In this document: positions 5,908 to 62,900 of the stretch, in pieces
How the letters are laid out: each line of letters opens with the position of its first letter
How positions within the stretch are numbered: the stretch's first letter is position 1
Assembly: GCA_964017185.1 (NCBI GenBank)
Contig: OZ024880.1
Coordinates: 45,769,071-45,833,070 of the forward strand
Direction of reading: 5' to 3'
DNA from: Rugalucina vietnamica
Taxonomy: Eukaryota > Mollusca > Bivalvia > Lucinida > Lucinidae
DNA length: 64,000 nucleotides
The notes under the pieces: generated by a model
Told to the model about the DNA's origin: nothing
Database searches by the model: none
The model's input: only the letters and a program-made list of their open reading frames with translations
Translations under genes and position numbers: made by a program

Positions 5908-6172
5908 TCAGGAAAACATGTCCGTGCAATATATACCCCCTTAAACCCCACTTTTATATAGCAAAACTGGGGTATGCAAGGGTATACCTATTTTTATTAT
6001 TTTTGCTCCAAAACATAGATTGTGGGTACTCGTTAAACCGTGGTTCTAACGTGTACCCACAATCTATGTTTTGAGCAAAAATAAGAAAAATATCAAATTT
6101 TTTCTACTGAAAATTTTCATTTTTCACAACTCTAAAAGCCTCTGTATATTGCATGGGCATGTTTTGGTAATG
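5908..6172 (-). mobile_element. Family B foldback MITE
   Basis: Starts ATCAGGAAAACATGTCC and ends GGGCATGTTTTGGTAATGA. The core is an inverted pair GATTGTGGGTAC/GTACCCACAATC. This copy carries a mutated GC-rich loop (CGTTAAACCGTGGTTC). Confidence 0.9.
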
Positions 6173-6251: not shown

Positions 6252-6487
6252 TGAGCCGCCTCATGGGAAAACCAACAATCTGCATAGGCGAAAACAAAGA
6301 CGCAGATCAGCTTCGCGGTAACCGCGAAGCTGATCAGCGCCTTTGTTTTCGCTACTCGGTTAGTACAATTCCTGTTCTACTTAAACCCGAAATTTCAAGC
6401 TTCTAGCTGTTTTCTGTGCTTGTACAGGCCGGTTTGTGTCGGACCTGTTCGGAAACCACATTGTTGGTTTTCCCACGAGGCGGCTCA
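6252..6487 (+). mobile_element. Family A MITE
   Basis: Full-length: TGAGCCGCCTCATGGGAAAA to CCACGAGGCGGCTCA. The stem reads CTTCGCGGTAACCGCGAAG. It is flanked by TT on both sides, consistent with a 2-bp target duplication. Confidence 0.92.
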
Positions 6488-26672: not shown

Positions 26673-26908
26673 TGAGCCGCCTCATGGGAAAACCAACAAT
26701 CTGCATATGCGAAAACAAAGACGCAGATCAGCTTCGCGGTAACCGCGAAGCTGATCAGCGCCTTTGTTTTCGCTACTCAGATAGTACAATTCCTCTTCTA
26801 CTTAAATCCGAAATTTCAAGCTTCTAGCTCTTTTCTGTGCTTGTACAGGTCGGTTTGTGTCGGCCCTGTTCGGCAACCACATTGTTGGTTTTCCCACGAG
26901 GCGGCTCA
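26673..26908 (+). mobile_element. Family A MITE
   Basis: TGAGCCGCCTCATGGGAAAA to CCACGAGGCGGCTCA, with stem CTTCGCGGTAACCGCGAAG. Near-consensus copy. Confidence 0.92.
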
Positions 26909-30828: not shown

Positions 30829-31782
30829 GTAAGGTTTTCTTTTTCCTATTCCTCTTCCAATGTACATGTATTTGTGGCATGTTGGTTAAAACTGTATACC
30901 TTTGTGCTCGTTGTTCTGATTTTTTCCTTTCAAAAATATACATGTACAGTATAATGCTGAAAAAAAGGTTGTCAATTACTCTAATGTAATTTCCTATTGG
31001 TTAGCTGCTTTTTCACATCGAAAAAAGAAAACAGGACAGTATAAGGGTTTATCATGTGGCATTGCTGATTTCCAATGGCATAAAAAGTGTTATGACCACA
31101 CATGTATTAACACTATAGTGGGAATACATAACGTCATTGACGACGTCCGTAACAACAATGCAAATTTTCATTGGAAATATGTGCAGTTTGAAAGCGATAA
31201 AATCCTATTTTACATCGAAAAAAGAAAACGGGACAGTATAAGGGTTTATCATATGGCATCACTGATTTCCAATGGATAACGTCATATAAAAAGTGTTATG
31301 ACCGCACATGTATTAACACTTTAGTGGGAATACATAACATCATTGACGACGTCAGTGACAATAATGCAAATTTTCATTGGAAATATGTGCAGTTTGAAAG
31401 CGATAAAATCCTATTTTATAAGCTATATGATAAAACAAATCTTACACTCATGGTCATTTCATATGATATTTATTAAACTCGCCAAAGGCTCGTTTAATAA
31501 ATTTCATATGAAATGACCATGACCTCTATATATGTGCAAACAAATTGCAGAAGAACATGGAACAAAAAGTATTGCCTACTGATATGATATGCATGCATCA
31601 CTTGAAACTTGTCATTCAATAAAATTCCTTTTAACAATTGAATCAAAAGGGCTCTCCAGAGTACTAGTTAAAACCAGTTGACTGGGATGTTAAACTTCCA
31701 TTCATACAAACAAACAATCGAAAGGTAAAAGCAAGTAATGATCAGGAAATGGTGCCATCAGAATCAAAGCTGATTTGTATAG

Positions 31783-31820
<38 letters not shown>

Positions 31821-33605
31821 GCACATGATGTATCATATACTCACTTTTTGTCCATGTCTGTTTTGGTATCATCCATCATTTTGCTGAATAAAGGCACAAA
31901 TTTTATTTTTTAACTCTAAATTTAAATGATAAAATTCTATAAAACATTAATTTTGCCTTCATTCTTTCAGCACTTTACATTGAAACCCTACCTTCTACCA
32001 GCCCTGCAGACACTGAAAAGACCCATCACTCCAAAACCCCAGAACACGATGCAGACAAACCCCGACATGGTTCCCTACTCCCACAATCCCCCGGGGCACA
32101 CCTGTGGACTTCCGTGCTGTAATGAAGAGTTACAGATACAACTGCGGGTCAAACGGAACCGCGGCCCCAGGACGTGTATCGGTATACAGCATGTTGACGA
32201 AATTCTGGCCGATAACTTCACATTCAGAGGAAAGATTTCAAAAGACCGACCTGGTTTAGAAAATGGATTCTTTTCTGTACAACAGAAGAAAGAGGCCCCA
32301 AAAGGGGCCATTCCTAAATTTGCTAGTGTCAGTAAGGGTATGACTAAAAAAGATGATCTGGGTCGGCATAATTTTCTCAAGGGAAGGGAGATTACTCTGC
32401 CTGAAGCAAAAGATCCTGATGCAACAAATAAGTTGTATCTTGAGGATTTCTATACTGGTGAAAGTGGTGATGATTTACTTGACGTAACGTCTGATAAAGA
32501 CATTGAATATTACATGACTGAAAGAAATCCAACTGATGCAGAAAAAGGTGTGCCTTATTCACAGAAAGACATTGATATGAAGGGATCATTTCCATGGGAA
32601 ATTGTACTAGAAGTGAAGAATAAAATGGCACCTAGTGAAAAAACAGATGATACAAGTAGTTCAAACTATTACGAAGTTTTGAACTATCCAGACAGCATTC
32701 AAAGCTCAGAGAATGAAAAGAATATAAGCGAGTCATTGACCTTGAAAAGGGTCAAGAAGTTTCCCATAGCTAAGCCTTTACCAGAAGTGCCCCCAAAAGT
32801 GCCTCTGCAGAATTTGTTCAACCATCCCCCATTGCCTAAGGATGAAGTGGAGAAAACTTCGGAAAGGAGTTTTAGCACTTTTAAACAAAACAGTACTTGT
32901 TCAGATAAAACCATAAACAAATATAACACCTACAGTACCCTATACTCACTTCAGAAAGAAGAGAGAAAGTTAGAAAATCTGCAACATAGATCACTTGATA
33001 GATCATACAGCGGACCAAAGTGGCGAATGGATGCAAGGGAAATCAATTTTCAAGCACCTGGTTTGCGAAAGACATCTACAGAAAATGAAAATACAGTAAA
33101 TCCTAAACCTCATGAAGCTTTTGATAACAAGAAAACTGAAAGTCAAACTTTAAAACCAGAGTTTCAGATAAATGAAATTCCAGGTACTGAAGATCCGGTT
33201 GAAGGTAGTGATGGGTCGTATAGCCCTAAACACACTTTTGAGGGGAGGAAGTTACATAGCCCAACCTTCAAACGTAAATCTGATGCACCTAACCCAGATA
33301 CTGATACACAATCAGTGGGCAATGATGGGTCAGAAAGCCCAAAACACACCTTTGAAGAGAAGAAAATTCAGAGCCCTACTTTCAAACGTAAAAACCAGAA
33401 TAAGAAGAAAAATCCATTTGAAAGAACGGAACGAGAAAACCAGGATTTTAACATAATGCTGAATAGTGAGTTGATGAAATTAAAGAAATTTTTTGCCCAA
33501 GATGATGAGGATGATAATGTAAACCAGAGAAGTGGTCGGTCAAACCCTGCATATGGAAGAGATGGGCGACAGCTCAAGGATAGTCCTGTCACATTGATTC
33601 TGTGA
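30817..33605 (+). CDS. Unrecognised 548-aa protein, complete two-exon gene
   Basis: Exon 1 is 30817-30828 (ATGGCAACAGAG, then GTAAGG). Exon 2 is 31971-33605 (acceptor ATTCTTTCAG), joined in phase 0, so the protein begins MATEHFTLKPYLLPALQ. No family is recognised. The N-terminal 100 residues are the most structured-looking (HTCGLPCCNEELQIQLRVKR with a CGLPCC cluster, then RTCIGIQHVDEILADNF). The middle and C-terminal parts are polar and probably disordered, rich in Lys, Ser, Pro and Asn. There are two near-identical repeats of SPKHTFE and SPTFKRK (about residues 436-450 and 475-490). A short helical stretch (LNSELMKLKKFF) leads into an acidic run (DDEDDN) and the C-terminus PVTLIL. The long reading frame that starts at 31926 includes intron sequence and is not the start. 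An alternative start is the first Met in exon 2 (32049). Confidence 0.72.
31011..31425. repeat. Tandem direct duplication, period about 200 bp
   Basis: TACATCGAAAAAAGAAAACGG, reading GGGACAGTATAAGGGTTTAT through TTGAAAGCGATAAAATCCTA, occurs twice in a row with about 95% identity by eye. It contains GTCATTGACGACGTC. It lies in the intron of the 548-aa gene. Confidence 0.85.
31450..31527. repeat. Hairpin TCATGGTCATTTCATATG
   Basis: The left arm TCATGGTCATTTCATATG pairs with CATATGAAATGACCATGA. A second stem surrounds GCCAAAGGC in the loop. Confidence 0.8.
31650..31722 (+). mobile_element. SINE 3' fragment
   Basis: CCAGAGTACTAGTTAAAACC, GTTGACTGGGATGTTAAAC and ATACAAACAAAC match the 3' end of the SINE at 34492. 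Confidence 0.5.
31780..31815. repeat. Poly(A) tract
   Basis: About 35 consecutive A, 60 bases after the SINE fragment. Confidence 0.9.
31971..33605 (+). CDS. Main coding exon of the 548-aa gene
   Basis: A single 1635-base open exon after TTCATTCTTTCAG, ending in TGA at 33603-33605. Codon usage and the repeated SPKHTFE/SPTFKRK motifs indicate real coding sequence rather than chance. The last 28 codons and the stop are duplicated 180 bases downstream. Confidence 0.8.
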   Translation, partial: HFTLKPYLLPALQTLKRPITPKPQNTMQTNPDMVPYSHNPPGHTCGLPCCNEELQIQLRVKRNRGPRTCIGIQHVDEILADNFTFRGKISKDRPGLENGFFSVQQKKEAPKGAIPKFASVSKGMTKKDDLGRHNFLKGREITLPEAKDPDATNKLYLEDFYTGESGDDLLDVTSDKDIEYYMTERNPTDAEKGVPYSQKDIDMKGSFPWEIVLEVKNKMAPSEKTDDTSSSNYYEVLNYPDSIQSSENEKNISESLTLKRVKKFPIAKPLPEVPPKVPLQNLFNHPPLPKDEVEKTSERSFSTFKQNSTCSDKTINKYNTYSTLYSLQKEERKLENLQHRSLDRSYSGPKWRMDAREINFQAPGLRKTSTENENTVNPKPHEAFDNKKTESQTLKPEFQINEIPGTEDPVEGSDGSYSPKHTFEGRKLHSPTFKRKSDAPNPDTDTQSVGNDGSESPKHTFEEKKIQSPTFKRKNQNKKKNPFERTERENQDFNIMLNSELMKLKKFFAQDDEDDNVNQRSGRSNPAYGRDGRQLKDSPVTLIL

Positions 33606-39591: not shown

Positions 39592-42500
39592 CTGAAAAAG
39601 ATCATTTAGCATCAAGTTCCAAGAAAAATAATGGATGATGGATACAGGCAGAAAATTCTGTCTGCAGAGGTAGTATTTTGCTAACTAAGAATAAAAGGTA
39701 TATCGGACACTGGGCATTTGAGCCTCAGGATAAGCGGTGTGTCGGATCCTGGCCATATGCCTGTGCTGTTTAAAAGGATAATGCTTCATCCCAAAGCTTG
39801 AGGTGTGCTGTTTATCTTGAAGTTGATGCTGAATTGGAGGTGACCATTCCAAAATGACCATACTTGAACAATAAACAACAACAAAACACGCTACAGATTA
39901 AACTCGTTACAACACGTCTCACTATAATGCAGGTGTCACTATTACGTATATTGAGCCACCTCGTGGAAAAACCAACAATCTGCATGTGCGAAAACAAAGA
40001 CGCAGATCAGCTTCGCGGTAACCGCGAAGCTGATCAGCGCCTTTGTTTTCGCTACTCGGATAGTACAATTCCTCTTTGTAAATACGAAATTTCAAGCTTC
40101 TAGCTCTTTTCTGTGCTTGTACATCCCGGTTTGTGTCAGACCTGTTTGGAAACCACATTGTTGGTTTTCCCACGAGGTGGCTCATATGTAAGTAGCCTTA
40201 TTATAACAAGGTTTAACCTATAACACAGCCTGTTTCTGTGGATCCAAAAGACAGAAGAATTTTATTGAGATTGACCCATATACTCACTGTTTGTAACTAA
40301 GGACTGCGCTGGCGCTGGAAGGAGATGTGTGATACTGTGTTTCCTAGCTTTCCGTTTCCTACTTCCTGTGACTGGTTCCTTGTCTTTCTCAGGTGTGGGT
40401 ATCTTGATGTGAGGAGGCAGGGATACAGTCTTCTCCAGGTCAATCACTATGGCTACAAAGAACATATGTATTCTTTAATTCTGATGCAGTGGCAAAAGAT
40501 ATTTCGATAACCATTTTCATCCATTTAATATTATTAAAGAAAAGTGAAAATATACAGCAAATGAAAGGGAATTTTGTAGCCTACAATCCTCACACCACAA
40601 ATTGTAGGGGTGAGTTTTGGGCTTATATTACTTGGCAAGAGTAACAGGCAGAAAGCCCTCAATTTGACTATAATGTGCTGAAGGCTGTAAAATTATTAAA
40701 GCCAAAAATATAAAGCAAGCAAGAAATTCTTTACTGGTGACGAAGACTAGCTGAACACAAATTAGAGTGCTCAGCACCTTTGTTTGTCTATCTAAATAAT
40801 CTGACCCTAATTCTTCCTAAATCAGATATTTGTAAGCCTTTACTCATCTTGTGTACTTGCATGGCCCAGTTTGTGCCTGACCTGTTTCGAAACCTTGAAG
40901 ATAAGTTTCCCAAGAGATAGGTCAAAAAAATGTCGTAATTTTCAAAATATGAGCCGCCTCGTGAGAAAACCAACAATCTGCATATGCGAAAACAAAGACG
41001 CAGACCAGCTTCGCGGTAACCGCGAAGCTAATCAGCGCCTTTGTTTTCGCTACTCGGATAGTACTATTTCTCCTCTACTTAAATCCGAAATTTCAAGCTT
41101 CTAGCTCTTTTCTGTGCTTGTACAGGTTGGTTTGTGTCGGACCTGTTCGGGAACCACATTGTTGGTTTTCCCACGGGGCGGCTCAAATGTCGAAATCTGG
41201 TACCTGGCTCCTCGGCCTCCTCTGGTTTCCTGTTCGGACAGGTGTCGCTAGAATGTCGTTGTCGGGCAAACCCACGCCGCCGGCTCATGTTTTCTATGCA
41301 ACAGGCAGGTAACGTAGCTATGTGGGCCTCCAAATCAAAGTCCCTGAAAAATTCAAGCACTATGTTCAATGTTTCATTTCAAGAAAGTACATGAAAAAAA
41401 ATTCTGTTGTTTCAACTGGAATTGAAGGTAAGGGAGATTATCAAAAAATCAATTTCACTGAACTGTACATACATTGTTGTCTTTGCATGGTAAAGAATTT
41501 TCCTTTCATGAAATACAAGAAATAAAATCAGATAGAGCACAAGCAAGATTTGCAAGTCTTTTGGAAATAAGATTTCCATGCTTTGAACAAAGGGAATACT
41601 AATTTGTCAGCATCATGTGACTTCATATTTTCTCTAAAATTCAGAAGGATTTGTCTCATCTATATCAAAGCAAAATTGAGCTCTCATCTTTTCTTACAAC
41701 GACAAAGAAATATTGAAATTACTGCATCATGTGGATGACTTACCCTGTTTTATATCGCTTAGCCTCCTCAAGGGACATCACTCTGTTTTTATCTGACTCT
41801 GACGTAGTTCTCTTTCTGATTCTTCTAATGGCTGTCTCCGGCAGGATGTGGGAGTCAATGCTCTGGAAATCTTCAACTTCACCACTGTAAACAGAATGGG
41901 CTTTGATAGAAATAAACATGTCTACAAGATTTCTGACCAGGCCCTGAGGTTATAAAACTTTTTTCATGCTCAGCTCAGCTGGGACTAAAATTTATACTGC
42001 TCATAAATGTTAAAATGCCAACAATTGTTGGCATTTAATTGTTGGCATTAAACATTTATTAGCAGGAAAAATTACAGGCTTTGGTGATTTAAACCTTAAA
42101 TTTCAATGTATGTGAGCTATTTCTGTATTTATGGACAATTTAAATTTCAGTCTTAGCTGAGTTGAGCATGAAAAAAGTTTGATAACCTCGTGACCAGGCC
42201 ACTGAGATACACAAAAAGAAAGACACTCTTTTTTCATCCCTTTTCGTGAGAGATAAGTAAGCTAAAGGGAAAGAATTATATTTTGCAAAACCTTGATAAG
42301 TAAAAGAAGTTACATCCCATAGATTTGTCAAAGGCTTAATAGAAAACCGGGTTTTCACCTATGCAAAAACAAAGGTATAGATCAGCTGTGCAGTAACTGC
42401 ACAGCTGATCAGTGCCTTTGTTTTCGCTACATACACAGTACCATTCCTATTCTTTTTCAATCTGAAATTTCAAGATTCTAGCTTTAGTCCAAGTTCATAC

Positions 42501-45500: not shown

Positions 45501-48500
45501 GCTAACGTTATTTTTCCACGCCATTTTAGGTTCATTTATTTTTGGAAAATCTGGACAATTTCTCCAAAATTTGGCATGAAATAGTTGTATAATGTAATAA
45601 TAACTATCAAACATTTTCTTTCTGATGCATTAACATCTGCTGGGCACCTGGGGAGGGGTGAACCCCTCGGCTGTCAGGCTTGGGTTTCAACGCCTATCTC
45701 GGGGCCTAGCAGATGTTAATGCATAGGAAAACATGTTTGATCCCTATATTGCAATTTTAAGTCAGCGGTTTTTCTCACTAGTTGTTGTTGCTATATTTTG
45801 TTTTAGCTTCTCACCAACTACTAATACCGTCATGTGAAAATGGTAACTTGGTTTGAAGTCTCATTAGAACTAGAAAATGTGTTTATGAAACACTATTCCC
45901 CCAACTGGTAAGCCACTTTCAAGATGTAAAAATGTCCAAAAAATGACTAAGTTCAAATTGTAAAAAAAGTGACAAAAATTAATCTGAGGAGTATATCCCA
46001 ACCACATGCATATGTTCAAAGCATGGTCACAATGTCTGCAAAGTTTCAAAAGTATCGGTATTAAATTGTAGGAGGAGTTGCGCACACAAGTTACCCTCTA
46101 TCCATCCACTAAAATGCCCGAAAAAATGACTAAGTTCAAATTGTGAAAAAAATGACAAAAAAATATTCCAAGGATTATATCCAAACCACATGCATATCTT
46201 CAGACCATGCCCATAACACATGTAAAGTTTTAAATGAATTGGCATGAAACTGTAGGAGGAGTTGTGCACACAAGGTACCCACTGCCCATTCACTTTCATT
46301 GTCAAAATGCCCGAAAAATGGCTAAGTTCAAATTGCGAAAAAAGTGACAAAAATTAATCTGAGGATTATATCCAAACCACATGCATATCTTCAAAGCATG
46401 GTCACAACATCTGTAAAGTTTCAAGAGAATCAGAATAAAACTGTAGGAGGAGTTGCGCACACAAGGTATCCACTACCTATTCACTTTATCAAGAATTAAA
46501 AAGGGAAATAACTCTCACAGAATTGGCCCCTAGCCCTTTGAATTAACCTGAAAGAAAAAATACGGGTCCTCTTAATTTTCATATACAAACTACATACCAA
46601 ATTTCAAGATCCTAGCTCTAACGGTTCCTGACCGAGTGTTCACTCATCACAGACTGACTGCACGCACTCACTCACTGCACTGCACGGACAGACCCAAACC
46701 AATGTGCCCCCTCAACTTCTTCGAAGTTGGGGGCATAAAGACAGAAGAAGCCCAGGCTCAAACTCATCACCCCATTATTTACTCTACTGTGTTACATGAA
46801 ATCAAACTTAGTATAAAAGGGGTTTGGGGTTTATGTCTAGGCCTAACACAATACATGTATATTAAAATATATTGTCCAGAAAGCTTTTTTTTTTATTTAC
46901 AAAGCAAAGGAATTGTTCAACAACCAAACCTCTGCTACAAAGCCATTACCTGCTAATTTTCCCGGCATTATTGAGCCCTCAGACAGCAGGTCCATTTCTG
47001 GGCGCAGGGCCTTCAGGCTGCCTGGTTTGGGTGAGCCCATCTTTTGATTGGGGGAGACTTTGTCTGGGTTGTGCCATTTATAGTCGGGGTTGGCCTTCAT
47101 AAAGGCATCCTTGTACTGAAACGATCCGTAATTTCAAATATTAATTAATATTCTCAAGAGATCATAAATGTACCTTAGCTTAAGTTTTTCTTTTAAGCTA
47201 AAACATGAAATATATGCTCTAATATAGGGATCGAACATGATTTTCCATTCAATAACATTTGCTAGGTCCCGAGGGGAGTGTTGAAAACCAAGGGCATAGC
47301 GAACACTCTTGAGGGACCTAGCGAATGTTAATGAATGATAAAATCATTTTTGATCACTGTTATTGCATAAATTCTGCACAAACGAAAGAGATAATGGTGC
47401 ACTATATTTTACAGCCTTGTCACATTTTCATATGCATAAAGGTTTTTGACTCTTATGCTCGTTCCCGGCGGACTTCAGTAACTCATTATTAGCATGTGCA
47501 TTGCGTCATTACGAAAACATGCCCATATGATGATATACAGTAATTTTTCAGGTCAAAAATCGATAATTTTCATAGGAAAATTTTTGATATTTTTCTTATT
47601 TTTGCTCAAAACATAGATTGTGGGTACACGTTAGAACCGCCTCGAGTACCCACAATCTATATTTTGGAGCAAAAATAAGAAAAATAGGATTACCCCTGTA
47701 TACCCCAGTTTTCTATATAAAAGTGGGGTTTAAGGGGGTATATTTTACACGGACATGTTTTCCTGATGGTGGCGCTCGGTAACGAGCATAAATAAAGGCG
47801 GTGTATGAACAGCATGTGCAGACATGAATTGCCACATTAATACTCGACTTTTTTCTTCGTTAATATACGTCTGTTAATATCATGTGCTAGACTATTTATG
47901 CAACAATATATGATAGCTTAAGTCCATGTTGTGTACATTACATAAATTCCTCCTTTACTAATAAGTTTAAGTCATAACCAATATAAAGAACAACCTATTT
48001 GATCGGATAAAATCAGAAGATTGACAAATGTAATAATTTTACAGTACAATGCATTAGGAAAACATGTCCCTGAAAAGTATACCCCCTTGAACCCCACTTT
48101 TATATAGCAAAACTGGGGTATACAGGGGTAAACCTAATTTTCTTATTTTTTTCTCCAAAACATAGATTGTGGGTACTCGTTAGAACCGCCTCGCCGAAGC
48201 GGTTCTAACGTGTACCCACAATTTATGTTTTGAGCAAAAATAAAATATCAAAATTTTTCAGCTGAAATTTTTCCATTTCTAAAGGTCAAAAAATCTTGGT
48301 GTATTGCAAGGGCAAGTTTTCGTAATGGTACCTGTTTTGCCAGATCTGTGTAGACACATTTCTCGTCCTCTTTCAAGTTGGCCCACAGATCACCGAGAAT
48401 CCGGGTCACACTTCGATTGTCAAGGTCCGGGTTCTTCTCGCGCACCATACTGCGATGGCGCTTACAGAATATAAGGAAGGCATTCATGGGCCGCCTTACA

Positions 48501-48526
48501 TCTCTCTTCTCTCCCTCCCCCTCCAT
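38639..48526 (-). CDS. BBX: HMG-box transcription factor BBX (bobby sox)
   Basis: The eight coding exons, in gene order, are 48526-48332, 47115-46950, 45237-44657, 43879-42594, 41884-41744, 41247-41204, 40452-40288 and 39591-38639. They sum to 3531 bases (1176 residues). The HMG box spans roughly residues 9-80: RRPMNAFLIFCKRHRS, then ILGDLWANLKEDEK, then YKDAFMKANPDYKW across the first junction. This arrangement is that of the divergent BBX/HBP2 box rather than a SOX box. Exon 3 opens with DPSNMGGLSMLLMAGQ, a block also found in vertebrate BBX, and exon 4 holds APVYKGMLAEALLDTC. The rest is long, polar and probably disordered with basic clusters (KRRNRGQRYQ, RKRKARKH), typical of the family. 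The start Met was chosen because only eight bases separate it from the acceptor. BBX is a nuclear DNA-binding protein linked to cell-cycle control; the target genes here are unknown. Confidence 0.88.
39952..40184 (+). mobile_element. Family A MITE in BBX intron 7
   Basis: TGAGCCACCTCGTGGAAAAA to CCACGAGGTGGCTCA. The G-to-A and C-to-T changes in the two termini match, keeping the inverted repeat. Stem CTTCGCGGTAACCGCGAAG. Confidence 0.92.
40288..40452 (-). CDS. BBX: BBX exon 7
   Basis: The acceptor TTCTTTGTAG is followed by CCATAGTG and the donor is GTGAGTAT. It reads IVIDLEKTVSLPPHIKIPTP with the basic cluster GSRKRKARKH, a likely nuclear-localisation signal. It enters in phase 1 and leaves in phase 1. 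Confidence 0.8.
40735..40922 (+). mobile_element. Degenerate family A MITE
   Basis: CTCAGCACCTTTGTTTGTCT, CAGTTTGTGCCTGACCTGTT and GAAACCTTGAAGATAAGTTT follow the family order. The stem and left end are eroded. It is immediately followed by an intact copy at 40950. Confidence 0.65.
40950..41185 (+). mobile_element. Family A MITE next to BBX exon 6
   Basis: TGAGCCGCCTCGTGAGAAAA to CCACGGGGCGGCTCA. Stem CTTCGCGGTAACCGCGAAG. It ends 18 bases from the donor of the proposed 44-base BBX exon. Confidence 0.92.
41204..41247 (-). CDS. BBX: BBX exon 6 (proposed 44-base exon)
   Basis: Exon 5 ends in phase 2 and exon 7 needs phase 1, so joining them directly gives an early stop. This segment, between ACATTCTAG and GTACCAG, starts with one base and ends with one base over (44 = 1 + 42 + 1). 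It is open (DTCPNRKPEEAEEP) and makes the whole CDS a multiple of three. The acceptor is only moderate. Transcript data would settle it. Confidence 0.55.
41744..41884 (-). CDS. BBX: BBX exon 5
   Basis: Between CTGTTTACAG and GTAAGTCATC. It encodes GEVEDFQSIDSHILPETAIR, then RIRKRTTSESDKN and MSLEEAKRYKT. It enters in phase 2 and leaves in phase 2. Confidence 0.82.
41934..42199. mobile_element. Family C TIR-MITE, short form
   Basis: CCAGGCCCTGAGGTTATAAA at the left and GATAACCTCGTGACCAGGCC at the right, continuing into CATGCTCAGCTCAGCTG / CTTAGCTGAGTTGAGCATG. The central hairpin is GTTAAAATGCCAACAATTG and its complement. The same unit forms the right end of 12640-13687. Confidence 0.85.
42334..42549 (+). 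mobile_element. Family A MITE, ends eroded (TGTGC stem)
   Basis: AATAGAAAACCGGGTTTTCA, stem CTGTGCAGTAACTGCACAG, GCCGATTTGTGCCAGACCTG and CCAGAAGACAGGTTTT. The TGAGCC termini are lost. It ends 45 bases below the donor of BBX exon 4. Confidence 0.8.
42594..43879 (-). CDS. BBX: BBX exon 4 (largest)
   Basis: Between TTATTTCCAG and GTAAGGAAT. It holds 428 residues with APVYKGMLAEALLDTCNKAN, a GQGQGQGS repeat, KTETKTETK and the basic region HPIRKSKRRNRGQRYQELI. It enters in phase 0 and leaves in phase 2. The first 40 codons precede the first internal ATG-like start and are part of the exon. Confidence 0.85.
44184..44406 (+). mobile_element. Family A MITE, first stem arm lost
   Basis: TGAGCCAGTGTATGAGAAAA to CCACGAGGTGGCTCA. 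AAAGGCGCAGTAACTGCGAAAC replaces the stem, a deletion of the left arm. Confidence 0.88.
44424..44639 (+). mobile_element. Family A MITE touching BBX exon 3 donor
   Basis: TGAGCCTCATCTCAAGAAAA to TCTCGTGTCATGGTTCA. It lies 18 bp after the copy ending at 44406 and 17 bases from the BBX exon 3 donor at 44656. Older and more diverged than its neighbour. Confidence 0.85.
44657..45237 (-). CDS. BBX: BBX exon 3
   Basis: Between CCATTGTAG and GTAAAGAT. It opens DPSNMGGLSMLLMAGQQH, the second best conserved BBX block after the HMG box. It continues as Glu/Thr/Asn-rich sequence ending LLELAK. It enters in phase 1 and leaves in phase 0. Confidence 0.87.
45308..45370. repeat. Hairpin AAGCCATGTATTAA
   Basis: AAGCCATGTATTAA and TTAATACATGGCTT form the arms around a 33-base loop containing GAACGCGTGC. 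Confidence 0.8.
45607..45740. mobile_element. Foldback MITE family J
   Basis: TGATGCATTAACATCTGCTG pairs with TAGCAGATGTTAATGCATAG. The GC-rich inner part includes GGGGTGAACCCC. It shares its outline with the copies at 47231 and 54832. Confidence 0.75.
45890..46490. repeat. Tandem repeat, period about 190 bp, three units
   Basis: AATGACTAAGTTCAAATTG, CCACATGCATATCTTCA, GTAAAGTTTCAA and CTGTAGGAGGAGTTG recur in the same order three times, each time with a different amount of change. Confidence 0.85.
46500..46735. mobile_element. Tail of a dispersed repeat adjoining the tandem array
   Basis: CAAGATCCTAGCTCTAACGG, ACTCACTCACTGCACTGCAC, and the stem CAACTTCTTCGAAGTTG followed by GGGGCATAAAG look like the 3' end of a retroposed repeat. 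The family is not identified. Confidence 0.4.
46950..47115 (-). CDS. BBX: BBX exon 2 (end of HMG box)
   Basis: Between ATCGTTTCAG and GTAATGGC. It completes the HMG box with YKDAFMKANPDYKWHNPDKV, then a linker with NQKMGSPKPGS and ALRPEMDLLS. It enters in phase 0 and leaves in phase 1. Confidence 0.9.
47231..47357. mobile_element. Foldback MITE family J
   Basis: AATAACATTTGCTAGGTCCC pairs with GGGACCTAGCGAATGTTAAT. The inner repeat is GAGTGTT / AACACTC. Confidence 0.75.
47506..47767 (+). mobile_element. Family B foldback MITE
   Basis: TCATTACGAAAACATGCCC to GGACATGTTTTCCTGAT. The loop is reduced to GTTAGAACCGCCTCGAG. Confidence 0.9.
48052..48327 (-). mobile_element. Family B MITE against the HMG-exon donor
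   Basis: CATTAGGAAAACATGTCC to GGGCAAGTTTTCGTAATGG. Its right end is four bases from the donor of the HMG-box exon (48331). Perfect core TTGTGGGTACTCGTTAGAAC with loop CGCCTCGCCGAAGCGG. Confidence 0.92.
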
Positions 48527-48534
48527 ACTGAAGG
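48332..48534 (-). CDS. BBX: BBX exon 1 of the CDS (HMG box)
   Basis: The acceptor ATATTTTCAG is followed by CCTTCAGT and ATG at 48526-48524. The first residues MEGEGEKRDVRRPMNAFLIF run directly into the HMG box, with helix I FCKRHRSMV and helix II SVTRILGDLWANL. It leaves in phase 0 at CAG|GTACC. A 5' UTR exon must lie upstream. Confidence 0.9.
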
Positions 48535-48607
48535 CTGAAAATATAAAATAAAACATCATTACTGTAGACAATCCCAATTAAATTCTAAGTATCCAGATTT
48601 GAAAGAA

Positions 48608-48865: not shown

Positions 48866-49218
48866 GATTTATTTAGTGTAGATTTTGTCTACAGTATGTA
48901 TTGTTCAATTTGGCTATCTACACTGGAGATAAACCTAAATGTTTATGGAGAATCTTTAAAGAAATGGTTTGGTCTTCTTATGGCTTAACGTCAACAATTT
49001 TTCAGTAATGTAGGGATAATTCTTTGTTGAAATGCGGCAAATTTTTGTCTGCCTTAAATTGCCAGTTTGTAAAAGGTCACTCATGTGGGTTAATTACCCG
49101 AAATGGCACAAAATGGTTCACTCTCTTTCTTAGTTTCTTTTGACTGTTTCACTAGTTCAAAGGATATACACATACATTTCTATTTCTATTTAAATTGTAT
49201 TTCATATTTGTGATCATT

Positions 49219-49454
49219 TGAGCCACCTCATGAGAAAACCAACAATCTGCATATGCGAAAACAAAGGCGCAGATCAGCTGTGCAGTAACTACACAGCTGA
49301 TCAGCGCCTTTGTTTTCGCTACTCGATAGTACAATTCCTCTTCTTCTAAAATCCGAAATTTCAAGCTTCTAGCCTGCTTCTGTGACTGTACAGGCCGGTT
49401 TATGTCAGATCAAGTCGGAACTCCCGAAGACCGATTTTCTCGCGTCACGGCTCA
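49219..49454 (+). mobile_element. Family A MITE, hybrid ends
   Basis: The left end is the CAACAAT type (TGAGCCACCTCATGAGAAAA) and the right end the CGG type (TCTCGCGTCACGGCTCA). Stem CTGTGCAGTAACTACACAG. It looks recombinant between subtypes. TT on both sides. Confidence 0.9.
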
Positions 49455-49461
49455 TTTGTTC

Positions 49462-51366
49462 CATGACACGGTGAGGAAACTACATAGACGGAGCCATTGG
49501 CTCTGTTAAGGAAATCTTGTGTGGGTTTTTCCGGTCACGTGCGGCGCCGTCAATCTCGGCTGTTTTGGTTGACACGAAAACGTAATATTTCCATTTATTG
49601 TCAAAATTTAATTTTATACTGAACACTAGCGAGAAAAGGGGAATTGTATGAGGGGCCCATGACTTTCAACTCACTTTCTTGTATGTTTGCGAGTTCCAAG
49701 TGGACGCGGTTTCGTCTGAATCACTTTTGTCGTGAGCCACGGCGAGGTAAACAAATGTCATTTTCTATAATGACCACAGGCTTTCTATTGCTCTTTCTGC
49801 ATAAATATTACTTATCTGAATGTTTAGACCGTCCGAATGTATGAAATGATTATCTAATCCTTCCCCACTCATGAAAAACAAAATTTGAATCAAATTAAAA
49901 TAAATTGAGAAAAAATAAACAATGGCTCCGTCCATATCGGCCGGCTCTGTCTATATCGGCTGGCTCCGCTATATGAGGGTGAGTTTTACTATATTGCATT
50001 CTGTAGGCACTATATTTTGTGATTATATTTTAAATCACTACACATTTACATGAAGTGGCCAGATACTCGCAACCACGAATGAGCGTGCCCTAATATGAAT
50101 GAAATAAGAGCTGTCTGATGACAGCGTAGCTCGACTGCATCTAGCCTTGTCAAACTGGGTATCTATTTCCAAGTTTGGACCCTCTATGATAAGTAGTAGC
50201 CAAAATCTAGACCTGTAGAAAACTATACCACAAGAAAGTCAACTTTGAAGGTGTTCAAGATTTTGACCCCTAGCCCCACCCCCGAATAAGGAGGACTCAG
50301 TGGTCCATGTCATGGAATGAAAGCCAACCCTACTGAGTACCTATTGTCCAAGTTCGGACCCTCTATGATAAGCTGTTGCTTATAAAAGCTATATACATCT
50401 GTGTGACGGGAACGCGGACGCGGACGACTGAGGTAACTACAATAGCTCTTCGCACTTCGTGCAGTAAGTACTCAAGTGTGCAGTGTCAACTTTTTCAAAT
50501 GTTGGTTTTGTTCAGTTTTGCGTCCTCCAAGCTGTTTCACTGGTATTGAGACGAATGGATCGGTAAGTGGGACGAAAACGGGAGTACCCCGGGAACAAAA
50601 AAACAACACACCCGCAAGCAGAGCTTGGCTTGTTCACGTTGTCCGAGGCTGCCTTGCACCCACAGGATGATATGGTCGAATGATCAAGAGCACTGAAATC
50701 AACAACTTTAACCACGGGGCCGCCCTTTTTGAAATGATAGATGGTTCGAGAAAAGCATCACCATTCCAAAAATAACTTTCAAAAAAATAATATCACTTTT
50801 GACTGGTAAACTCAACAGCGAAACAAATCTATCGCTTCTAAAACTCACCCTCATACAGCGGAGCCAGTCGATATAGACAGTGCCGGCCGATATGGACGGA
50901 GCCATTGTTTATTTTTTCTCAATTTATTTTATTTTGATTCAAATTTTATTTTTCATGATTGGGGAAGGATTAGATAATCAATTTCATACATTCGGACGGT
51001 CTAAACATTCAGATAAGTAATATTTATGCAGAAAGAGCAATAGAAAGCCTGTGGTCATTATAGAAAATGACCTTTGTTTACCTCGCCGTGGCTCACGACA
51101 AAAGTGATTCAGACAAAACCGCGCCGACTTGGAACTCGCAAACAGACAAGGAAGTAAGTTGAAAGTCATGGGCCCCTCATACAATTCCCCTTTTCTCGCT
51201 AGTGTTCAGTATAAAGTTAAATTTCGACAATAAATGGAAAACTCACGTTTTCGTGTCCACCGAAACAGCCGAGATTGACGGCGCCGCACGTGACCGGAAA
51301 AACCCACACAAGATTTCCTTAACAGAGCCAATGGCTCCGTCTATGTAGTTTCCTCACCGTGCATGA
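49462..51366. mobile_element. Transib/RAG-like non-autonomous element with 520-bp TIRs
   Basis: Left CATGA|CACGGTGAGGAAAC at 49462 and right GTTTCCTCACCGTG|CATGA at 51366. This gives a perfect 5-bp target duplication around 1895 bp (49467-51361). The arms 49467-49989 and 50840-51361 are inverted repeats of about 520 bp, each containing the same 66-codon frame on opposite strands. The 850-bp centre has no transposase. CACGGTG ends and a 5-bp duplication are the known signature of Transib and RAG-like transposons; assignment rests on ends only. Confidence 0.75.
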
Positions 51367-51393
51367 CCACCATTCAGCTAATTTTAGACAAAT

Positions 51394-51631
51394 AAGAGCC
51401 GCGACGCGAGAAAACCGGTCTTCGGAGTTTCCGACCAGGTCCTACATAAACAGGTTTGTGTAGTCTCAGAAAATGGTTAGAAACTTGAAATTTCGAATTT
51501 AGGAAGAAGAGAAATTGTACTATCCGTGTAGCGAAAACAAAGGCGCTAATCAGCTTCGCAGTTACTGCAAAGCTGATCTGCGCCTTTGTTTTCGCATATG
51601 CAAAAATCCGGTTTTCTCACGATGCGGCTCC
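51394..51631 (-). mobile_element. Family A MITE (CGG-end subtype)
   Basis: AAGAGCCGCGACGCGAGAAA to CACGATGCGGCTC, with the outermost T/A pair mutated. Stem CTTCGCAGTTACTGCAAAG has one mismatch. It lies 28 bp beyond the Transib-like element. Confidence 0.9.
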
Positions 51632-53574
51632 TATAATCATGTTTAGGCTCTATCTTTACTCTCCACACTGGAGAAAAGCCTAAAAGCTTCATAATGCCAA
51701 AAGCTCACTCAGACTATATGTTCAGCAGGAAGACTTCAGAATTCTTTGTAATTATGTATAAATTTTTTAAATAAAGGCAACTACAAAGAAAATACGTAAG
51801 AAGGTAAGAATTATTAAAAACTGTATAAGAAAGTGAAAATGCAAATTGAAACAATTAGGTCTCTCTACAGTATGTGTACTAATCTGACATGCTATCAGAT
51901 CTTTAAGTAAGACTACTTGTTTTTGGAAACTGATTGATTCAACGGATCATTCTAATCTAAATAATTTTCGAAAATGCACCTATTGCACCTGTCAACTTTA
52001 AGTATTAATACATAGTTTCATTTACACATTTTACTTCCTGATTAGTACTTTCACCTTTTATTTCACTATATATATCACTGTAAGGCATAACGATAAGCTC
52101 ACTCTTCATATATAAGATGAAGCAGGTACAAAATGTATATATATAATTTGTAACAAAAACACACCATTTGGGAGGTACATCACAATATTTTGCTGTCAAC
52201 TAGAAGGGGTAGAACCCTTGCCACCTAAAACTGAGCATTTCAAATTTATTTCTTTAGATGAATGAGTTTTCATTAAGGTGCAAGGTCAGTACTGGTCACC
52301 AATGTCTGATCAGAAAATGATCAATTACATTAACACCTATAATATAAGACTATCTAAGTTTAGATATTGATTAATGCCCCAGTCAACATTTTTTCAGTCA
52401 CGTTAGCACGGGGACTATATTATACTGCGAGCTGTCTCACCCATCGTGTCCTACCCTAGCTGGAGGACTCCTATTTAAATGTGCAATAATAGACGTTTCT
52501 CACTGCCAAACGATATATATATATATATATATATTTAAAAGATCTTGGATTATTTTGATCTCTATTTCTATTCAGGTATGGACCCTAAACTAAAGCTCCA
52601 TACCATTGAATGAAATCTACCCTTAAAGGTACTTATAGCTTAAGGAATGCCTTATAAGTCACAAGGGGGCTGTCAGAATGTGGAAAACTTGAAAAGAAAA
52701 ACGTTAATTTAGTTATTACCACAAATTTTAACATTTTTTGAAAGTCTGACTTCTGGCCCAAATCCCAAACATACATACAAAATATATGCTTAAAGGATAC
52801 ATGTGATGAACCTAGGGTCATATGATTTAATGCCATTCATTTATCTTACAACATTAAAGAAATATATAGCTGGCTGTCAATAGCGAACTTTCGCTATTGA
52901 CAGCTGGCTGTCAGTAGCGAACTTTAGCTATTGACAGCCGGCTGTCAGTAGCCACTTTATTGGGCCTGGGTTGACAATCATATCAAACCTCATTTAACCC
53001 ACTGGCAGCCTCACTTTCATTTTGACACCCTTGAGTACCTCTTTGTGCCTAGTGTTGATATTTTGAAGAAAAAATCAGTGCAGAAGGATACACATTTCAA
53101 CAGCTGATCCGATCTGTGAACTACACATATGCACTGAAAGCACAGATGAGACCAGCAAATATGCTGTTGTTACCTTAGTTAAGCCTGTGCTATTGTAAAG
53201 ATGGCATAGATGTCATTTCACAATATTTGATTGGTGTCAAGCAGCGACCAGGGTGGCCTTGAATTTATCACTAAAAATAAAGTTTAAATCAGCATAAATT
53301 ATCTCATGGAATCCCATGAAACCTTATTCATATGATCACTGTTTTCCTTTTCAAACAACGTGAAAGAAATAAATCACAAATAAGAAGCAACTGACACTAG
53401 AAAGTGAGATAATTAAATATGCAAGATCTCACTTTTGAGTTTTGTGTACAAATTCAATGAGCATGTGTCATAAACATTTTCACCCTCCACATCTGTGCCC
53501 AATAAGGTCAATGAAAAAAGCTTTGATTTCCGAAATCAAACCGCCTATATGATAAAAGTAACTTTGAACTTACC
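51632..53574 (-). other. Likely first intron of BBX
   Basis: No coding exon. It contains an (AT)n run at about 52508-52535 and an eroded SINE on the minus strand (about 52360-52480, CCAGTCAACATTTTTTCAGT). A 46-bp-spaced hairpin array is annotated separately. Confidence 0.45.
52868..52945. repeat. Tandem hairpins of GCTGGCTGTCA
   Basis: GCTGGCTGTCAATAGCGAAC, then TTTCGCTATTGACAGC, is repeated with slight change (CAGTAGCGAACTTTAGC), so both direct and inverted pairing are possible. Confidence 0.85.
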
Positions 53575-58031: not shown

Positions 58032-59907
58032 CTGTAATTAAAGAATAGGAACCATCGCATGAGAAAAATTCTAGAAGCTCCCACGGCGTTGTGGTAAAGC
58101 CACTCGCCTTTTAAGGATGTTTCGCTGCCAATGAAAAAGTATTCAAACTGGGAAATGAAGTTCCTTAGATCGACAGTTTTCATGACTCGTTCAATGCACA
58201 TCATCAATATATATTCAAATATAAAGATATTAGGAAAATATCTGCAACCGTTTACGAGATATTCAACAACTTAATTAATAAATACCGGAAGTTCCGAAAT
58301 GTCAAAAGTTTAGCAGCGTTAAACGAATCTCTCAAATTATTTCGATCTCGGGCTCTTCCTGTTTTAAATTACGCGGTCCCTTGATAATTTTCGGTCGAAA
58401 AGTACATACAAGACTGGAGACTACGCTATGACTACTTTGTAAAGTTCAAGGAACAAATAGTCTTCAGACCTTACCCATAGACCACAGATTTTTCACAAGT
58501 CGCAATTTCAAAAGAGTTATACAAATGGGAGAGACTCTAGTTCGAAAGTTAAAACAAAAATCACAAATCGTGACATGTACTTACCCTAAGTCTACATATC
58601 TGTCATGAGGGTTGTTATAGGTGCATCGACTTGCCTGAAAATAAAGCCTAACATGTCATTACGAAAACGTGTCCATGCAATATACAGAGATCTTTTGAGC
58701 ATAAAATGGGAACTTTTCGACTGAAAATTTTGATATTTTTCTTATTTTTGCTCAAAACATAGATTGTGGGTACACGTTGAGGCGGTTCTAACGAGTACCC
58801 ACAATCTATGTTTTGGAGCAAAAATAAGAAAAATAGGTTTACCCAAGTATACCCCAGTCTTATTATATAAAAGTGGGGTTTCATGAAGGGGGTATTCATT
58901 GCACGGACGTGTTTTCCTGATAAATGTCCTCCAAAAACTATTGTACCTACAGGTTAAAAGAGTGTGCTTTATTATATATGAGCCTGTGCGTGAGAAAACC
59001 AACAATTAAGCTTCCGACCAGGTCCGACACAAACCAGCCTGTACAGTCACAGAAGATGGTTAGAGGCTAGAAATTTTGGATTTAGAAAGTAGAGGAATTG
59101 TACTATCCGAGTAGAGAAAACACAGGCGCTGACCAGCAGTTACTGCGAGGCTGATCTGCGCCTTTGTTTTCGCCTATGCAGATTGTTTTTTTCCCCATGC
59201 GGCGGCTCAAATCTTAAAAGTTCTGCATCATGAAATTATTCGTTTCAGAATGCACAGAATTTCGATCGTACTCTGTTGTTTCGTTTTTGAAATATCTAAA
59301 AAAAATGAAGAAGAAGAAGAAAAAAATAACAAGTAGCCCAAGGGCAACGATCGCTCACCTGAGACTTCAAGAAATACAGTTACTGGACTAAAGAAAAGTA
59401 TACTTAAAACCATTAAAAACGCAACTGATATACAGGTTATTAATTTCTACCTTTCAGGGACACCTTGTGCGCTTAGCGAAGTCAGCTTGCCCCTCGCCCG
59501 AGAATCGTTCAGCGAAAACTGAACTCAATTTAGCATTTCTGTTTGATTTTTCGGTGAAAAATAACAAAATCATTAAAATTTGATTTTAAACCCATTCAAC
59601 CTTGCATAGCAACCCAATTTCAATGCGGAAGTATGGGGCCGAATACCAGCAACAAAAAAAAAAAAAAAAAACGGTGTAATACCGACAATTCCACCTGATG
59701 GAACGACCAAGACTGATTTCCAAATGTTCAATTTTTCGAAAAAAATACCACAGATTTTGAGAATCTACCGAAACTTCAATAAAACAGAATCATTCCATAG
59801 TTTGGACACAGGAGATGTTACGTTCTAGCATATGGGTCCATTTTATGACAGTTTTAATTTTCAAAAAAATGGCATTCTTGAATTCACTTCCTTTTGTAAG
59901 ATCAAAA

Positions 59908-59940
<33 letters not shown>

Positions 59941-62900
59941 AATGGTTTACATAGACTATAGAGCAATATTGGCATTGACCGAAAGTTTGAACACAAAATA
60001 GCTAGTCATAAAGGTTAACGTATAGCTGGATTGATAAGGTGCATTTGCTTTTGTTTTGTCCATGTTTGAGTTGTGTCCCTTAATCGACAAACGCAGATCG
60101 CTTTACTTCACTTGCTAATTTAGTTCAAGACGAATATGGCCTTCATATCGGGACGACAATTTCATGATTTTATATAATAACATTGTGAAAATATCCAAGA
60201 ATCGTTGGATAGGTTATATGCTGAAAGTTGCGTTTTTACTGGCTTCAAGTATAGTTAAAATTTGGCTTTGATTGGCCAAGCGGTTTAAGAGAAGAAGATC
60301 TTTGAAAAGTGTGTATGGACGACGGACCAGCCAAGGTCAAGAGATGACCCAAATTAATCATATACCTTCATCTTATCCATTAGTTGTTTTCATCTACCAC
60401 TTTTCAGGTTTTAGGCTGCAATAGTTTTCAAAAAAATCCATAGTTTTCACTTTTTCACATGTAAAAGCCAATGTTTCCAAACTTGACCTTGCCGTAAAAT
60501 AGGTCATGCCATCGCCGGGCCATGATTTATATACACATTGTAGTACTTGAGCCGGGGGGGTGGGGGGGGGCACTCCCTGGTAAGCAGTGTACCGATGCGT
60601 GATCAAAGGATTGTTGAACATACCCTAAACAGTGTGATCGACATTTAAAATTTGACCCCCCTTTTCACTGTGTTTGCTTTAAAATGTGACCCTTTCCACT
60701 GTGTCCCGTCAAAAAGTACCCCTTTCCACTGTAGTCAACTAAAACACTGGAATGCAATAATTCTTTTATAACCACGTGAAGATGCTATATGTGTAATATG
60801 CAAACAATCTGCCTGATGGCTTCAGAGAAGTAATTTTAAAATATAGACAGACTACAGTAACGGAAGATGGATGCCACGTACCTGCCTATCCTATAAGATC
60901 ACCTTTGAGACTTTGGCTCTGTTGGGTTAAAATGCTTAAAAATGTGGAACTGATATGATCATAAATAAACATTTGGTCATGCAATCAACACATGAAATAG
61001 CTAAAGTTACAAATAGGCAACATACAGGTACAATAAGAAAAGATGGTAAACCTTAAAATGCACATACAAAAGAAATTGTCATCACTGAAACGAGAAACAG
61101 ACTAACCACAGAGGAAGTATCGCCTTGGAACTGTCAGTAATAAAGTATTGGGGGTTTAAATTGTTTCAGGGCTTTCAAGCTTTGCCCTCAGCATCTGAAT
61201 TTGTTCAAATGTACACAGAAAATTGACACAAATATATATGAAATAATGGTTGGTTGGTTAATTTTGTGTTTTGTCCCACTAAACAGCTAAGGTAATATGG
61301 CGATAGGAAATTAGTTTAAGTCTTGTACGAAAAACTGGAGAAGCCTGGAATTGACCCCTGGTTTACAAGGCAAGCAGCTTTCCCACTACACCACTAGGCT
61401 TCTATACATACTTGAAATAAATCTTGATATAGTAGATAAATACCAAGCACTTACATATAGCAAGCATTATGGAGAGCAGGGTACAAAAGACAAGATTTAA
61501 TACAAACCATTTTTATTTGTATGAACTACTCAATTAGCAGAAACAATAATTTCTATTGAAGCAACACACATTGTTGAACAGAAAGGGAAAATCATATCTT
61601 ATCCCTTAGGTTTTAGACATTTTAGTCATTTCGGCCCAAAACATATCGGCCAAGGACGCCTCGGTCCACCCCTTTTCACAGCGTTTTAGCAGAATTGTAA
61701 AAAACATACCCTTTTTCCACAAAAACGACATTTTGCCTACCCTAAATGATGTCAGCGCTGCGCACTGCCCTTCTTGAAAAAAGTACCCTTTCTCATCGTT
61801 TTTATGATCACGCATCGGTACACTGCTTACCAGGGAGTGCCCCCCCCCCCCCCCCCCCCCGGGTACTTGAGTCATAGATGCTTCATGCTAAGTTTCGTTA
61901 AAATCGGTCCACTGGTTCCAGAGAAGATGATTTTTGAAGGGTTTTTACCATATATGCGCATGGCAGCCATCTTGGTTGTGTATCCTGGATTATTTATATA
62001 TACATTGGTTCCCACTTCCTACAGATGCTAGGACTAGTCAGCAAACATTTACGTAAAAACAAAACTCAAAAATTTCAAGCGAAATGGCAGAAATTGCAAT
62101 TTTCTGCTTTTCGTCTTATAAGTCAATGGAAACTTTAAGTTGCCATAGCAACAAAAGTAGTGGGACAAGGACAATAAAAAACACAAACTTTGTAGAGGCT
62201 ATATAATATCATAAGCATGTATGCAAAGTTTCAGCTTCATCCGCCTTACAGCTTCTGAGAAGAAAATTTTTGAATATTTTTTTTCGAAAATTTACCCTTT
62301 ACGTTGCTATAGCAACCAAACGAATAAAGCGATTTTGACAAAAGTTGTCTAAAACGGGGAGGACTACTCAATAAACATTTATGTAAAAACAAAATTTCAA
62401 TATCCTCAATGAAACCGCAGAAATTGCAAATTTCCACTTTTTGCCTTATAAGTCAATGGAAACTTCAAGTTACCATAGCAACCAAAGTAGTTGGACAAAG
62501 ACAATAAAAAACACAAACTTTGTACAGGCTAATGTCATAAGCATGTATGCTAAATTTCAGCTTCATCCCCCATACGGCTTCTGAGAAGAAGATTTTTGAA
62601 TATTTTTTTCGAAAATTTACCCTTTATGTTGCTATAGCAACAAAACAATAAAGTGATTTTTACAAAAGTTGCCTTAAACGTGAAGAACTACTCAATAAAC
62701 ATGTATGTAAAAACAAAATTCAAAAATCCCCAGCCTGACAACAGAAAATGCCAATTTCCACTTTTTCTCCATACAAGTCAATGGAAACTTCAAGTTGCCA
62801 TAGCAACCAGAGTTCTTATACGATCAAGATAAAAAACACAAACTTTCGATGCTCCACATAAAATTTGGCTTTGATCGGCCATGCAGTTTCAGAGAACTTA

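Follow-up and report, generated by a model that had tools for sequence, protein, structure and literature searches.

The RAG-like (RAGL) transposons of protostomes begin with CAC and duplicate 5 bp of target on insertion, a length that is invariable among them; pairs of terminal inverted repeats (TIRs) with no protein between them are known, including non-autonomous pairs reported in a pearl oyster, and ends from a single species resemble one another over an extended length (Martin et al. 2020, PMC7204232). Their tip consensus is given as CACTWMCAAACKTYKBB (PMC7204232). ProtoRAG of lancelets likewise has a heptamer-like tip (CACTATG, its TR1) and a 5-bp duplication, and it carries a further sequence, TR5 (GCCATCTTG), which sits 27 or 31 bp inward of the tip heptamer (PMC8289069). 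The TIRs of many invertebrate RAG-like elements measure about 15–17 bp (PMC8355894), and those of the bat star element 13 bp (PMC4411706). Tips of the form CA..TG with duplications of 2–5 bp are found in most of the CACTA-Mirage-Chapaev-Transib group (PMC12730594), of which the CACTA/EnSpm elements of soybean, such as Tgmt*, are examples: they start with CAC, duplicate 3 bp, have TIRs of 13 bp and asymmetric subterminal regions, and reiterate a subterminal motif (17 bp in Tgmt*, 17–20 bp in Tgm1) in direct and inverted orientation (PMC2613891). Galileo, of the P superfamily, has long TIRs that hold several sites for the THAP domain of its transposase, near 70 bp, at 561–577 bp and at 701–718 bp (PMC3688188). 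These descriptions follow the accessible parts of the cited papers.

Here we compare with these systems a locus of the lucinid bivalve Rugalucina vietnamica, whose assembly comprises 1,089,854,562 bases in 47 contigs. All positions refer to the window, the whole stretch of 64,000 nucleotides that was analyzed. We consider it probable, with good confidence, that the locus holds a cut-and-paste long-TIR non-autonomous transposon inserted between a pair of MITE copies, on the 5' side of the exon that encodes the BBX HMG box.

Boundaries and coding capacity

The element spans 49467–51361 (1895 bp), from CACGGTG at 49467–49473 to CACCGTG at 51355–51361; it starts with CACGGTGAGGAAACTACATAG, and its far end is the reverse complement of that sequence. 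Directly outside lie the two copies of CATGA that make up the target site duplication, at 49462–49466 on the left and 51362–51366 on the right. The left TIR (49467–49988, plus strand, 522 bp) and the right TIR (50839–51361, minus strand, 523 bp) enclose a central region at 49989–50838 and are 95.985% identical (about 96%) over 523 aligned columns, differing by 20 substitutions, 11 of which are transitions, and by one indel, with no difference at all in the outer 99 bp. The earlier note had described a 1895-bp element with CACGGTG at both ends, a perfect 5-bp duplication and inverted repeats of about 520 bp, and our coordinates agree with it on each of these points.

The element is a single copy, so its boundaries are set by one duplication; neither a second copy nor an empty insertion site was found within the window. 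When the ends are shifted by −6 to +6 (13 offsets), a 5-bp duplication appears at offset 0 only, the other 12 offsets giving 0–3 bp, and the chance of a 5-bp match at one fixed place is p ~0.0013 at the given base composition. For comparison, we scanned the window for inverted 12-mers lying 60–8000 bp apart, overlapping ones included, which yielded 654 edge pairs. A duplication of at least 4 bp accompanies 9 of the 654 (counting tips with more than two kinds of base, low-complexity tips being left out), and 2 of the 654 start with CAC; the combination of CAC and a duplication of at least 4 bp is found in this element alone. The plus strand of the window contains CACGGTG at position 1047 and at the element tip.

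Folded as single-stranded DNA, the outer 94 bp give a z of −2.0, with 7 of 200 shuffles folding equally well. The exact 25-bp tip had 0 matches in a collection of virus contigs and 0 in one of prokaryote contigs, collections from which little was to be expected, and no Rfam match reached the gathering score. Literature searches found no occurrence of the tip CACGGTG in any of the 10 papers listed, out of 528 matching ones, and no paper on mollusc long-TIR elements with a 5-bp duplication. Also in the center of the element is a 33-bp direct repeat (50168–50200 and 50347–50379, 88%, 179 bp from start to start), in which we saw no link to the arm motif described below.

We counted 27 stop-to-stop open reading frames (ORFs) of 40 aa or longer that overlap the element; the longest has 81 aa. 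A Pfam scan of 10 of these 27 ORFs, the longest included, gave no match at E 1 or better; two right-arm mirror ORFs, at 50984–51205 (73 aa) and 51163–51348 (61 aa), were represented in the scan by their left-arm counterparts only. Because the longest ORF is 81 aa and the 10 scanned ORFs have no Pfam match, we take the element to be non-autonomous, and on the same two results we reject a decayed coding element. With its inverted ends, its CATGA pair and no transposase gene found, it is a non-autonomous DNA transposon, as had been claimed before; it is real and ordinary in kind.

Position between two MITE copies near BBX

Inverted symmetry persists beyond the element, between 49300–49453 and 51396–51550, as it would if there were no element at all and the locus were an inverted duplication with symmetry running through its flanks and a coincidental CATGA. 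We regard such an origin as very improbable. The outer symmetry comes from a 236-bp MITE present in two separate, oppositely oriented copies, both outside the element: one at 49219–49454 (plus strand, 236 bp, model positions 1–236) and one at 51395–51631 (minus strand, model positions 2–235), each with a 2-bp flank match of its own (TT and TA, respectively), although such matches are weak singly. The near-identity of the arms ends at CACGGTG, the few dozen bases from there up to the MITE ends align poorly, and the restriction of the 5-bp duplication to offset 0 likewise argues for a mobile element. An element larger than 1895 bp was also considered and rejected: since each flank is a separate MITE copy, the outer symmetry extends no palindrome.

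The ends of the flanking MITE are close to TGAGCC..GGCTCA, and it is unrelated to the element. Its model, derived from the sequence of 16 window copies, yields 66 overlapping rows when both strands of the window are scanned; 28 of them, each at a different place, exceed 98 bits, and the two flanking copies are among these. Without the element and one CATGA, about 40 bp would separate the two flanking copies. The MITE is abundant, with about one copy per 2.3 kb of window, a strongly palindromic core and some close pairs; further copies lie, for example, at 26673–26908, 6252–6487, and 40950–41185.

The coding exon closest to the element carries the HMG box of BBX and lies on the minus strand (ORF 48251–48577); its best solved-structure match is the BBX chain 1wz6 (3.6e-20). 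The element is about 0.9 kb away, on the 5' side of this exon. The insertion had been placed inside BBX intron 1. BBX as the host gene is upheld by the structural match. The assignment to intron 1 is not shown: three residue patterns of vertebrate BBX revealed no coding exon upstream.

Elsewhere in the window, 5991–6090 (plus strand) and 58734–58835 (minus strand) score for Rfam MIR8562 and mir-2024, far below the gathering score; the ORFs overlapping these two places share a peptide, so the two stretches probably belong to another family of repeats rather than being microRNA genes. An ORF of 559 aa at 31926–33602 (plus strand, opposite to BBX) has no Pfam match at E 0.001, and longer tandem arrays occupy 62043–62846 (330 bp x 2.5), 45924–46487 (191 bp x 3.0), and 31011–31418 (206 bp x 2.0).

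A motif repeated within the arms

Tandem Repeats Finder reports a 19-bp tandem array at 49924–49974, the 18-bp core of which is GGCTCCGTCTATATCGGC. This motif has four sites in each arm, in both orientations, at arm positions 12, 77, 458, and 477. In the left arm, site 1 lies at 49478–49495 (minus strand, 14/18 positions matching), site 2 at 49543–49560 (plus strand, 15/18), and sites 3 and 4 in tandem at 49924–49960 (plus strand, 17/18 each), inside the 19-bp array. The right arm mirrors the left, with sites 4 and 3 at 50867–50903 (minus strand, 15/18 and 17/18), site 2 at 51268–51285 (minus strand, 15/18), and site 1 at 51333–51350 (plus strand, 14/18). This makes eight sites in all, which amount to four independent ones because the arms are copies of each other.

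The left arm has two sites of at least 14/18 in its outer 450 bp; among 1000 dinucleotide-preserving shuffles, none had two or more and 1 had at least one, a test that concerns sites 1 and 2, the motif itself having been derived from sites 3 and 4. At the looser threshold of 13/18, 4 of 50 simple shuffles of the whole element contained a single chance site and none contained more, and the 61.5 kb of window outside 49201–51700 contain no site at 13/18 or better.

From this anatomy we propose that a transposase made elsewhere, acting in trans, would bind the motif array of each arm, then pair the two ends, cut at the CAC tips, and insert the element with a 5-bp stagger. Because the transposase would bind an array in each arm, the long arms may be multi-site binding platforms. 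By analogy, arms with four sites are organized like those of transposons with long TIRs or subterminal repeats, such as Galileo and CACTA, and Galileo would be the nearest worked example for the proposed multi-site ends: its long TIRs likewise bear several sites, starting near 70 bp (ours has one at 77) and continuing beyond 450 bp (PMC3688188). The likeness is one of layout, and our element differs in having an extra site at 12.

Affinity of the element

The most likely lineage, judged from just the CAC..GTG tips and the length of the duplication, is the CACTA-Mirage-Chapaev-Transib group, to which we give about an even chance. Transib/RAG-like elements are the member of this group whose duplication length fits, and we name them as a tentative candidate.

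That the element is a Transib or RAG-like derivative, with arms mobilized by a RAG1-like DDE transposase encoded in this genome, is accordingly possible but doubtful. CAC forms the first three bases of both ends, the duplication CATGA is 5 bp long (in one copy), and the tip matches the RSS heptamer at 6 of 7 positions and ProtoRAG TR1 at 5 of 7; protein-less TIR pairs and extended similarity of ends within a species, both known from protostome RAG-like elements (PMC7204232), would also suit such an origin. Against this, the protostome RAG-like consensus is matched at 4 of the first 11 positions and at 7 of all 17, and no repeated subterminal motif is described for these elements in the accessible part of that report. 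The Repbase rule places non-autonomous elements in one superfamily if their duplications are of equal length and positions 1–11 show at most one mismatch (PMC4455052); with 4 of 11 positions matching, it does not join our element to the protostome RAG-like consensus, a result that applies to that RAG-like consensus only. Arms of half a kilobase with four motif sites each, against the short TIR of RAG-like elements, lower the probability of this origin rather than exclude it, as derivatives may gain long arms. A survey of molluscs counts one Transib element in its accessible part (PMC10294476), which is a weak prior, and the target CATGA is not GC-rich, against the GC bias stated for these families (PMC8289069). 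As the earlier note had observed, nothing nonamer-like follows the heptamer, in that no A-rich nonamer is seen by eye at a spacing of 12 or 23 bp. The one resemblance to ProtoRAG TR5, also found by eye, is GCCAT alone at arm position 27, 19 bp behind the heptamer, and we treat it as a mere lead. The RAG/Transib lineage that had been suggested for the element is thus compatible with its CAC tip, 5-bp duplication and 6/7 heptamer, and is not established in view of the 4/11 tip positions and the long multi-site arms.

Within the same group, an EnSpm/CACTA- or Chapaev-type derivative would account for the motif as the subterminal repeats of that group, its duplication being unusual or longer by coincidence. 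CAC..GTG ends are those of EnSpm (PMC12730594), and a repeated subterminal motif in both orientations is found in soybean CACTA elements (PMC2613891), as it is in our arms. We nonetheless consider this unlikely: EnSpm duplicates 3 bp (PMC12730594, PMC2613891), against 5 bp here, and CACTA TIRs are 13 bp long with asymmetric subterminal regions (PMC2613891), against the symmetric arms of our element. At a match probability of 0.266 per base, a 3-bp duplication would extend to 5 bp by chance with p ~0.07, which is possible in one copy.

The element may instead belong outside the CACTA-Mirage-Chapaev-Transib group, to a superfamily with long TIRs or 5-bp duplications: Mutator-like, hAT5, P/Galileo-like or Ginger2. 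We hold this, too, as a tentative alternative. hAT5 duplicates 5 bp, as our element does (PMC12730594), and the long TIRs of Galileo with their several binding sites (PMC3688188) have been compared with our arms above. Duplications of 4–10 bp in IS256/MuDR and of 4–5 bp in Ginger2 include the observed length. Against these families, the hAT tip is YARNG, from which CACGG departs in having C, not A or G, as its third base; P/Galileo elements duplicate 7–8 bp (7 bp in Galileo itself, which has a P-type transposase), where 5 bp are observed; and Ginger2 starts with TG, where our element starts with CAC.

Returning to the Transib/RAG-like reading, its fullest form would be a RAG/Transib family with half-kilobase arms and four repeated predicted binding sites in each, whose transposase reads an array and not a heptamer plus one element. 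We rate this as improbable; if true, it would represent a different design of end recognition in the lineage that gave rise to V(D)J recombination. Should the same arms flank another transposase, the element would be one more long-TIR non-autonomous family, and CAC with a 5-bp duplication in one copy would have been too little for RAG kinship. Should they flank a RAG1-like DDE transposase (Pfam PF12940) elsewhere in this genome, they would add to the RAG lineage a family whose multi-site end is unusual, and would allow a direct test of how end recognition can change in that lineage.
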